Shown: positions 1 to 2,094 of the stretch, piece after piece | Layout: each line of letters begins with the position of its first letter | How positions within the stretch are numbered: position 1 is the first letter of the stretch | Assembly (NCBI GenBank): GCA_903875135.1 | Contig: CAIQUZ010000114.1 | Span: 1-64,000 of the forward strand | DNA length: 64,000 nt | Source: an uncultured beta proteobacterium | GTDB taxonomy: Bacteria > Pseudomonadota > Gammaproteobacteria > Burkholderiales > Burkholderiaceae | Direction: 5' to 3' | The notes under the pieces: model-generated | Told to the model about the DNA's origin: nothing | The model's input: the letters and a program-made list of their open reading frames with translations, nothing else | The model's database searches: none | Translations under genes and position numbers: made by a program

Positions 1-180
1 ACGGATTTCAAGGGCTTCAATTCCTTTTTGGGTCAGTGTCGTATTAAAAGCCCTAAATTTAAAAATACGCTCTAATTCTGAAAGCGAAGAAGCATCTTCG
101 TCTACGCAAAGAATTCTGATACTTTCTGGGCGTATACGAGGAATCGAGCTATTTTTCTCTGAGTATTCGGTTTCAGACAT
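1..180 (-). CDS. Response regulator receiver protein, N-terminal part (runs off the window)
   Basis: The reverse strand opens with an ATG at 180 and stays open to the window edge (60 codons). After about 20 polar residues it reads IRILCVDEDASSLSELERIF, the first beta strand and acidic pocket of a receiver domain, with C-V-D-E-D in place of the usual V-D-D-E. The text continues through a helix to an E-A-L-E-I segment typical of the second helix. The phospho-acceptor Asp and any output domain lie outside the window, so the subfamily cannot be named. It is separated by about 190 bases without a recognisable gene from the next minus-strand gene, so co-transcription is uncertain. Confidence 0.7.
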   Translation of the reverse strand, partial: MSETEYSEKNSSIPRIRPESIRILCVDEDASSLSELERIFKFRAFNTTLTQKGIEALEIR

Positions 181-371: not shown

Positions 372-989
372 TTATGCGTTTGTATCTATTAGATGTCCTA
401 CATTACCCATTTGACTTGCCATCAATACACTCATTCCTTTTAAGACATCCTGCAATTGAATGGAATTCATTGGCAAGCCTTGAGATAAAAGTAAGTCATT
501 AAAGCTATTTTTCAGTTGTGTGACAGTCAAAGCATCACTAGAACCTGAAGAGTCTAAAGAGGCGGTAATACTGATGAGCACATCTTGAAGATAATTATTT
601 GAATCGGTATGGCTAAAAGACTGGTAAGTAGCCCCCAAAAAATGACTACTTATTTGGGAGTAGGAGACGTTTTGCATAGATTGGTCTATATTTTGGATGA
701 GATCTGCGATAAAAACATCCGTGGCTTGCTGGGAAGTCAGCGATGAAGTGTTTAAAAAAGAGGCATTATAAGCAGGAACGTGTAAGAGATTTTCCATCAC
801 GATATAAAATGACTTCGTGAGATGATTCAACTTGTTCAGGGTATTATTGGCCAAATTAGCAGATAAGTGAGATCCAAAATCACTAACAAAAGAGCTACTA
901 CCAACTCGAGAACTAGAGCTTGCTGTTGTACCACCTAACATGGCTGGATTGTACAAAAGAGGTAGATTAAGGTGTGATATGTTATTCAT
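372..989 (-). CDS. Unrecognised Ser/Asn-rich protein ending in an M-G-N-V-G tail
   Basis: I do not recognise this 205-residue protein. The ATG at 989 is preferred over an upstream ATG at 1070 because the extra 27 residues are hydrophobic and low-complexity, whereas from 989 the protein begins MNNISHLNLP and is preceded by a weak AAGATAG. It has no cysteine, no clear signal peptide and no transmembrane segment. It is rich in Ser, Asn, Leu and Gln, with several predicted amphipathic helices. The last residues, QMGNVGHLIDTNA, closely match the C-terminus of the small gene at 1921-2094 (QMGNVGTIINTKA). The region is far more AT-rich than the housekeeping genes. The shared tail suggests a common sorting, binding or processing signal, but no function can be given. 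Confidence 0.6.
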   Translation of the reverse strand: MNNISHLNLPLLYNPAMLGGTTASSSSRVGSSSFVSDFGSHLSANLANNTLNKLNHLTKSFYIVMENLLHVPAYNASFLNTSSLTSQQATDVFIADLIQNIDQSMQNVSYSQISSHFLGATYQSFSHTDSNNYLQDVLISITASLDSSGSSDALTVTQLKNSFNDLLLSQGLPMNSIQLQDVLKGMSVLMASQMGNVGHLIDTNA

Positions 990-1280
990 AGCTATCTTAT
1001 TTGTAAGACAAACACTGTATAAAGTGTAAGTATTATAAATATATAAGCTTTGAGCAACAAAAAACAGCATATAAAGAAAAATTATTACATATTATTTTTA
1101 TTATCTTTATAAGAAAAAGACTATTTAAAAGTTATGAAATATATAATAAATTGGCCACAATAATGGCATTGGAAAAGTTACAACGAGAAATTTAATCTAA
1201 GAAGAGGTATTAGATTTTAGAATAATTATTACAACTTACATTACTATTAACGGACAATTTATTGAAAACTTTAGGCTTTA

Positions 1281-1841
1281 TTAAAAATAATTTCTAGTTC
1301 CTGGACAAAACCGATTAAAAATTTGATTCCAAGCTGATTTGGTACGAATGATATCTCTTGGTTTACTGGATTCCAACATTAAAGTCCCATTGGCCATCAC
1401 TTGTAAAAAGTAATTGTTAGGCCCCCACCAAGTGCCTGCATGTTGGACATAACCTACTAATACGGTACTTGGGACCCAGGTATTTAATTTAAGTTCTTTG
1501 ACGTTCGTATCAAAAATATATTGTGTAATCGTGGTGTTGACTGCATTGTTCAGGTTATTAACTTCGGCATTTGAGATCTCTGGAGGGGCCGCAACTTTAA
1601 CCTCCGTAATTGAGGCTTTGCGGTAGATACATTCTTTAGGGTTATAAACATACCAAAAAGTATCGCCTGAACCACCTTCATCCAAGCCCTCTGTATAGTT
1701 GATAATTTTAGCAACTGTATCAATTTGTTGACTACGTCTAAATTGATCAATTTCCGATTCGCTCTCAGCTGCAAAACATAAACTTGAACAACAAAATATG
1801 ATGAGGGTAAAAGTCGGGGAAAAGGTGAAAAAAGTCTTCAT
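1281..1841 (-). CDS. Secreted protein of unknown function
   Basis: This 186-residue protein starts with a clear signal peptide: MKTF, then a hydrophobic stretch TLIIFCCSSLCFA, with likely cleavage after Ala24 or Ala25. The mature part is acidic to neutral and begins ESESEIDQFRRSQQ. It has two cysteines (in PKECIYR and NRFCPG) that could form one disulfide in the periplasm, and a Trp/Tyr-rich centre (TFWYVYNP, GTWWGPNNYF). I do not recognise the family. The start is fixed by the signal peptide. There is no Shine-Dalgarno in front of it, but a TATAAT lies only six bases upstream of the ATG. Its neighbours on the same strand are the two genes that share a C-terminal tail. Confidence 0.6.
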   Translation of the reverse strand: MKTFFTFSPTFTLIIFCCSSLCFAAESESEIDQFRRSQQIDTVAKIINYTEGLDEGGSGDTFWYVYNPKECIYRKASITEVKVAAPPEISNAEVNNLNNAVNTTITQYIFDTNVKELKLNTWVPSTVLVGYVQHAGTWWGPNNYFLQVMANGTLMLESSKPRDIIRTKSAWNQIFNRFCPGTRNYF

Positions 1842-1847
1842 GCATCA

Positions 1848-1853
1848 ATTATA
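1848..1853 (-). promoter_or_regulatory. Possible -10 box very close to the start codon of the secreted-protein gene
   Basis: On the minus strand TATAAT ends six bases before the ATG at 1841. A TTTAGA (4 of 6 to the -35 consensus) lies 16 bases upstream of it. If this is the promoter, transcription would begin at or within a base or two of the start codon, giving a leaderless message, which fits the absence of a ribosome-binding site. Confidence 0.35.
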
Positions 1854-1920
1854 AAAAGAATACTTATCCTCTAAAGTAGAAACACATACAAAAAATGTCT
1901 TTTGTTCAGAGCTTTAGCAA

Positions 1921-2094
1921 TTAAGCCTTAGTATTAATAATCGTGCCAACATTACCCATCTGTTTGACAGGTGCTTGAGAGGGAGTATCTTTAATTCCAT
2001 CACCATTTTCAGGACGCGCTGAACTTGAATTTGGAATCGAACTCACCGGATGCGGCCTGCTAGCCGCATATGCACTCGTTTTAGATAAATACAT
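1921..2094 (-). CDS. Small protein (57 aa) ending in the same M-G-N-V-G tail
   Basis: An ATG at 2094 (preceded by TTGGAAATATTAA, weak GGA) opens a 57-codon frame ending at TAA 1921. The protein starts MYLSKTSAYA, is Pro/Ser/Ala-rich and probably disordered, and ends KQMGNVGTIINTKA. The last 13 residues match the end of the 205-residue protein at 372-989 at eight identical positions, with conservative changes at I/L, N/D and K/N. That match, in two unrelated protein bodies, is the main evidence that this is a real gene. It has no signal peptide or membrane segment. It could be a substrate, peptide partner or regulator linked to its neighbours, but function is unknown. Confidence 0.5.
   Translation of the reverse strand: MYLSKTSAYAASRPHPVSSIPNSSSARPENGDGIKDTPSQAPVKQMGNVGTIINTKA

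Follow-up and report, generated by a model that had tools for sequence, protein, structure and literature searches.

FliK signals the end of hook construction during the growth of a flagellum. In Salmonella, residues 301-350 of FliK and its last five residues are important for switching of the export gate, according to the accessible part of one study, in which changing the last residue alone from A to V left motility nearly normal (PMC10965912). A 2026 paper proposes, in its available portion, that FliK engages the C-terminal part of FlhB through its last five residues, and the same text indicates that the way in which these residues trip the export switch is still under study (PMC13344023). 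YjfB is called 'an uncharacterized small protein' in the available text of a further paper (PMC11607428). Within the partly accessible literature on C-terminal flagellar motifs and on the role of YjfB, the tail discussed here was named in FliK only. If other natural proteins carry the FliK terminus, they would be ready-made probes of the contact between FliK and the gate, and YjfB proteins and the nameless family described below would gain a testable role. The analysis reported here suggests that proteins ending in such a tail make up a flagellum-linked group not described before.

The window, meaning the whole stretch of 64,000 nucleotides analysed here, opens with a run of minus-strand genes. 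In the order in which they are read these are A (1921-2094, 57 codons), S (1281..1841, a conserved protein of 186 aa whose N-terminus reads as a signal peptide), B (372-989, 205 codons, with an earlier in-frame ATG at 1070 that would make 232) and the start of a response regulator gene (1..180). A preliminary description of this DNA had taken A and B for proteins of unrelated body with nearly the same tail at the stop, separated by a third, secreted gene and with a response regulator just beyond, and these observations stand. A and B are unrelated to each other, with the tail in common and no known domain; S is conserved, reads as secreted from its N-terminus and sits between A and B in all three genomes that have both (G000, which is the genome of the window, G222 and G179); and the response regulator is real, though cut by the contig end. 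A and B were also supposed to belong to no recognised family, and neither matched one in Pfam, NCBIfam or PHROGs, the sole PHROGs row for B having an E of 0.16. S was likewise without a family match in these three collections. An AlphaFold model of B was poor (mean pLDDT 36, two sequences), too poor to serve as a query for a fold search.

The response regulator combines a receiver domain with an HD domain, the latter of HD-GYP type by reading, and its remainder lies on contig C88 of the same genome (G000:C88). The first 141 bases of the window are the reverse complement of the first 141 bases of C88 (L176 1-141), so the gene was split by the assembly. On C88 the cluster continues with a TPR gene after the response regulator, with no E gene (see below) between them, and then with a TPR-glycosyltransferase-41 gene. 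The cluster in G222 also runs on into a TPR gene and a TPR-glycosyltransferase-41 gene, and another TPR-glycosyltransferase-41 gene of G222 follows fliS behind the flagellin genes. A response regulator orthologue (E up to 1e-60) was found in four of 186 genomes of the genus (G000, G179, G211 and G222), all of which have the B family. Separately, a conserved lipoprotein-like gene (LFDxxxNLNQWTQV) was seen near the cluster in three genomes (L033 13738-14349, L175 4126-4737, L176 5227-5835). In these comparisons we take the genus to be Polynucleobacter and the order to be Burkholderiales.

A ends in QMGNVGTIINTKA (1921..1962, 13 codons plus stop, minus strand) and B in QMGNVGHLIDTNA (372..413, 13 codons plus stop, minus strand). 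These 13-residue tails are identical at 9 of 13 positions with a BLOSUM62 score of 46, a score reached by none of 2,974,002 random 13-mer pairs taken from different proteins of this genome (maximum 36). When real C-termini were compared, using the 116 complete frames of at least 80 aa and therefore excluding A, the best of 6,670 pairs scored 26 and joined B with its paralogue C. At the DNA level 29 of 42 bases of the A and B tails are equal and the differences are synonymous, which argues for conservation of the protein and against recent copying of the DNA. In the whole genome the DNA pattern for QMGNVG has two matches, the ends of A and B, and a narrower pattern of the tail DNA has five, which are the ends of A, B and C and one place each on C88 and C113 that by reading end no gene.

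A consists of a brief N-terminus, a polar linker and the tail, and a likeness of its N-terminus to FliS (AYA) was not counted, being a tripeptide only. Among 186 genomes of the genus, its own included, A was detected at E < 0.001 in four others, always at the same genomic place. The copies in G222, G195 and G179 are intact (67%, 77% and 63% identity to A) and the one in G209 is degraded (35%), and in every genome with A an ABC-F gene directly precedes it (the window copy has ABC domains by Pfam). Across six pairs of the four intact copies, which represent four species, pN/pS for A was 0.20-0.43; over three pairs each, the ABC-F neighbour gave 0.08-0.13 and B gave 0.34-0.55. A is a real gene that is under purifying selection in four species.

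B belongs to a family of paralogues. A degenerate tail pattern searched in five genomes led to C (241 aa, ending GSLLDTKA) on contig C14, beside which lies D (186 aa, ending GNLLSTAA); the two form a divergent pair next to a PIN-domain gene and an RNase R gene. E follows the response regulator in G222 and G179 (204 and 201 aa, ending GNFFSSQA and GNFLNSKA) but is not at this position in G000. In G158, G186 and G224 the gene immediately before flaG is F, which ends GSLINVTA, GSLINLSA and GSLINLTA, respectively. Pairwise searches connected B, C, D and E over much of their length, with best E-values of 5e-14 (B-E), 3e-13 (D-E), 6e-6 (C-D) and 2e-5 (B-C), values that are generous for Ser-rich proteins since the database held 13 sequences and neither composition correction nor masking was used. 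In G195, A, C and D are present and B, E and the response regulator were not found. G209 has an A without its end, S and B persist there as remnants (L034 8903-9460), of B's end LNNVGRLIDIKA alone is still readable, and C/D is reduced to a fragment; the regulator and E were not found there, and a flagellin-type gene (392 aa) is retained. The A-to-E set of G209 has decayed together.

A two-row family profile run on genome contigs found one locus, in G222. With a 13-row profile the B family was matched in 11 of the 186 genus genomes at E up to 0.01. Matches were strong in G000, G222, G179 and G195, which are the sources of the profile rows, and in G211, which is new (3e-49); they were weaker in G186, G158 and G224 (9e-6 to 0.003), and in G209 the match is a remnant of 43 residues. 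The last two, in G020 and G044 (E 0.008, frames of 992 aa, C-terminus not covered), are probably due to chance. With an 18-row profile, 399 genomes of the order were searched and 24 had a match at E up to 0.001; removal of G000 and G186, which are in that profile, left 22 genomes outside the genus in 11 other genera. In alignment A3, the L056 row begins one codon ahead of its start codon. The tail G-x-x-h-[DNS]-[TSLVI]-x-[AVG] ends 19 of these 22 outside loci, nine with A, two with V and eight with G, and all eight G-ending loci belong to one genus. The exceptions are L193, which ends GNSFFATA, and L198 and L199, which are without the tail, L199 probably being a chance frame. The members that were tested matched nothing in NCBIfam, and their Pfam matches lay below the curated cut-offs with one exception: L184 matched Pex19, a family of eukaryotes, with 23.7 bits where the cut-off is 22.2 (E 4.5e-5), probably an effect of composition. 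An early idea, that these are R-body (Reb) proteins, was unsupported by any Pfam match, and a search of solved structures with the family profile gave weak, unrelated matches only (best E 0.044). The B family is thus an unclassified one within the order, explained by no model of Pfam or NCBIfam, and its proteins are rich in Ser and Gln and probably helical.

The same kind of tail was found on FliK. FliK of this genome, which has a Flg_hook domain by Pfam (gene at L135), ends GVGLINTFA, and those of G179 and G211 end GIGLINTYA and GIGLINTFA. The best 30 FliK loci, taken as the best-scoring of 74 genomes with a match among 150 relatives, all end [VI]-[DN]-[TILVM]-[FY]-[AV], and E. coli FliK ends SGVDIFA. 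Eight further distinct FliK proteins include three that fit the tail (INLYA in G018 and G036, VDLFA in G062) and five that do not (VHLYA in G158, G186, G145 and G010, VSLFV in G064), giving a FliK-type terminus in 33 of 38 distinct FliK proteins. In G158 and G186, FliK ends VHLYA while F ends INVTA or INLSA, so the tails of FliK and F do not visibly covary. As a separate observation, more than one flagellar type seems to be present in the genus, since FliK has the end LINTFA in part of the genomes and VHLYA or INLYA in others (L204-L209).

When a 7-residue matrix built from the 30 FliK tails, that of this genome included, was scored on the 116 complete frames (background mean -15.9, sd 6.9), FliK itself scored 20.0 as part of the training set, B scored 6.6, C 4.5 and all others at most -2.9. 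A, which is under the length cut and was scored apart, reached 2.1, a value attained by 0.2% of internal 7-mers. Low scores were obtained for D (-5.2) and for E (-17.9, at background). The pattern G-x(1,2)-[ILVMF]-[DNS]-[TILVS]-x-[AV] at the stop was then found in five of 120 complete frames, namely A, B, C, D and FliK; these frames come from the window and four other stretches of this genome, about 127 kb of 2.7 Mb, and three of the stretches had been chosen for holding family or flagellar genes. In flagellar regions of relatives the pattern ended five of 129 frames (FliK twice, F three times), and in 32 other loci of the genus it ended none of 70. All 20 YjfB-type proteins that were read end G-x-x-[ILV]-[DNS]-[TVLI]-x-[AV], 17 of them scoring above the Pfam cut-off and three below, a set that leaves out two rows with no locus and the ten weakest loci (L107-L116). 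A protein of 130 aa from G222 that ends GNLLSKKV and reads as FlgN had no Pfam match at 1e-5 and was not counted.

B is preceded by a predicted sigma-28-like (flagellin-type) promoter, TAAAGTTTTCAATAAATTGTCCGTTAA (1247..1273, minus strand), 284 bases before its start codon. Sites were scored with a matrix made from the upstream regions of flagellin genes of the genus (consensus TAAA, 15-16 bases, GCCGTTAA or TCGTTAA), which rests on 15 of 19 distinct regions, the four that scored < 4 bits having been dropped. All three orthologues of B have a site, scoring 18.2 (G000), 15.2 (G222) and 14.1 (G179) bits, with the limit that the starting words and spacing of the matrix were set after candidate sites including B's had been seen, so that B is not wholly a blind case; the sites of C played no part in this choice. 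B came first, at 18.2, among 86 upstream regions of this genome, and the next scored 11.9. The five orthologues of C scored 17.3, 17.3, 14.1, 14.1 and 14.1 bits. The distance from site to start is 233-298 bases for B, 60-63 for C and 66-127 for flagellins scoring over 14 bits. The matrix found no clear flagellin-type site for A, S, D, E or F, and likewise none for four of the 19 flagellin upstream regions. A simple pattern, written after B's site was seen, had that site as its single zero-mismatch match in the window, and with up to two mismatches it had 17 matches, little above a chance mean of 11. The E. coli sigma-28 consensus was uninformative; flagellins of this lineage mostly have CGTTAA where the consensus has CGATAA. 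B and C are predicted to carry promoters like those of flagellins (sigma-28 type).

Neighbouring genes and co-occurrence also bear on the flagellum. F directly precedes flaG in three of three genomes, alongside fliD, flhA, or flhA plus a flagellin gene; Pfam supports the fliD, flhA and flagellin genes of G158 and G224, and flhA of G186 is named by reading. A gene matching Flagellin_N is present in all nine genus genomes that have clear family members or a remnant, compared to 65 of 186 overall, a difference that would have a probability of 5e-5 if the genomes were independent, and they are related. The two weak family matches (E 0.008) lie in genomes without a Flagellin_N gene. Flagella can do without the B family, which at E 0.01 was missing in 56 of the 65 genomes of the genus that have Flagellin_N. 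In 6 of the 22 loci outside the genus, a member has motB (L184, L185, L188) or a TPR gene (L180, L183, L195) as its neighbour. Two further observations were made in flagellar regions: a run of nine consecutive flagellin genes in G179 leads up to a FlaG-like gene that encodes a protein with the end INTTA (L129 5062-19144), and one FliD of 1486 residues has a possible C-type lectin insert (L132 623-5083; Pfam Lectin_C, E 3.6e-6, over the cut-off).

The genome of the window itself has flagellar genes from the rod to the export gate, flgB to flgL and fliK to fliR among them, and also fliS, with FliK, FlgL and FliS identified by models and the other names mostly by reading. Flagellin_N also matches FlgL, and the only such match in G000 is FlgL; a true flagellin was not found in this assembly, which is 93% complete. 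Two genes downstream of fliS, this genome encodes another protein with a Flg_hook domain (PF02120; 341 aa, L178 6961-7986), and this one has no such tail. Both points slightly lower our confidence in the flagellar identification of A and B, which we nevertheless regard as probable.

The tail had been noted on two proteins, but it is on many more, being also carried by C, D, E, F, FliK and YjfB. It is not a known domain, the 57-codon frame is conserved in relatives, and as a conserved terminus on differing bodies the tail behaves like the recognition-type signal that the preliminary description had suggested. However, the accompanying idea of a system unlike any known is not supported, since the tail ends FliK and YjfB, B has paralogues, and promoter, neighbourhood and co-occurrence place B and its paralogues with the flagellum.

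The likeness of the tail to those of FliK and YjfB, its rarity elsewhere, the promoters of B and C, the neighbourhood of F and the co-occurrence with flagellin-type genes were all computed; gate binding, export and any effect on the switch are what we infer from them. B is tied to the flagellum by its tail, promoter, relatives and co-occurrence, and A by tail, position and co-occurrence only. The flagellar link of the tail proteins is well supported, and docking of the tail is a step that we infer beyond it. We propose that A and B are flagellum-associated proteins with a C-terminal tail of the FliK/YjfB type that docks at the export gate, a mechanism held tentatively, with belief and doubt nearly balanced and doubt slightly ahead. 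The tail in A and B would most likely act as the last five residues of FliK do, reaching the cytoplasmic export gate where the C-terminal part of cleaved FlhB adjoins FlhA. As a late flagellar protein, B would either leave the cell by export or be retained at the gate, and A, which is little beyond a linker and the tail, could compete with the gate contact or tune it. The near-normal motility of Salmonella with the A-to-V change in FliK agrees with the V found at some tail ends. A broader and more doubtful possibility is that the export gate reads a C-terminal password, G-x-x-h-[DN]-[TV]-x-A, used by FliK, YjfB, the B family, A and some FlaG proteins, which might serve as switch tuners, export pausers or timers of filament growth. 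If this were so, A would come near to being the smallest natural peptide that addresses the gate.

An unlikely but coherent alternative is that the tail is a degradation signal, recognised at the C-terminus by Lon or a comparable protease, so that these proteins would be present for a limited time. A C-terminal degron would account for conservation of the end only on differing bodies. Degrons are usually loose in sequence, whereas here a hydrophobic residue, D/N/S and mostly a final A are kept from YjfB to FliK. In Caulobacter, the accessible part of one report states that removing the last five FliK residues (LDIRI) abolished Lon degradation of a C-terminal FliK fragment (PMC8545394), and the LDIRI end fits hydrophobic-D-x-x. 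However, in the available portions of the Salmonella work the corresponding FliK residues act in switching (PMC10965912, PMC13344023). Degron and switching roles are compatible and can both be true, and A and B may be exported, may be competitors at the gate or may be removed by a protease, all of which remain candidates.

We consider it somewhat less likely again that the tail is needed for assembly or docking outside the cell, for example on the hook or filament, instead of for gate contact. The Ser/Gln-rich composition of the B-type proteins, the flagellin-type promoters predicted for B and C, and the position of F next to flaG, with fliD or flagellin nearby in one genome each, would all agree with such a role, but FliK has the same end and is not part of the filament, and YjfB and A would appear too small for usual structural subunits. 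It is improbable that TPR or glycosyltransferase-41 proteins encoded nearby recognise the tail and modify the Ser-rich bodies. The clusters of G000 and G222 do continue into such genes and TPR genes flank members in L180, L183 and L195; however, E. coli FliK has such a tail and is surrounded by flagellar genes only, and at the other 19 of 22 outside loci no TPR neighbour was recognised within about 1.5 kb on each side, where some of the neighbours were scanned. That the A and B tails are a local copy from chance or recent duplication, and their likeness to FliK and YjfB a coincidence, is very improbable, since even for a short motif of about five informative residues the null gave 0 of 2,974,002 random pairs at score 46, the two tails have diverged synonymously, and the stop pattern ends only five of 120 frames, one of them FliK.

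If gate docking is the correct reading, a conserved C-terminus can define a functional class without any domain model. F adjoins flaG, and the FlaG-like (PF03646) proteins of G179 and G211 end INTTA, but the body of FlaG differs, the remaining FlaG proteins that were read have ends such as LVSQKA and LFLNRKA, and the one FlaG tail scored on the FliK matrix was near background (-11.8). The domain content of A and B makes them neither FliK nor YjfB. They do not match YjfB_motility (PF14070), which has no match in this genome at E 0.1, and B is three times longer than YjfB; yet these too are small proteins, A and B fit the terminal G-x-x-h-[DN]-[TV]-x-A, and by reading most D and F proteins start M-x-[IL]-x-A-[LIM]-[AT], much as YjfB does. 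A and B are likewise without PF02120 and FliK is a separate gene here, with F or Y as the penultimate residue in FliK compared to N, K, M, T, A, V, Q or S in A to F. However, by both matrix and pattern A and B share with FliK the C-terminal hydrophobic-[DN]-x-x-A placed exactly at the stop.
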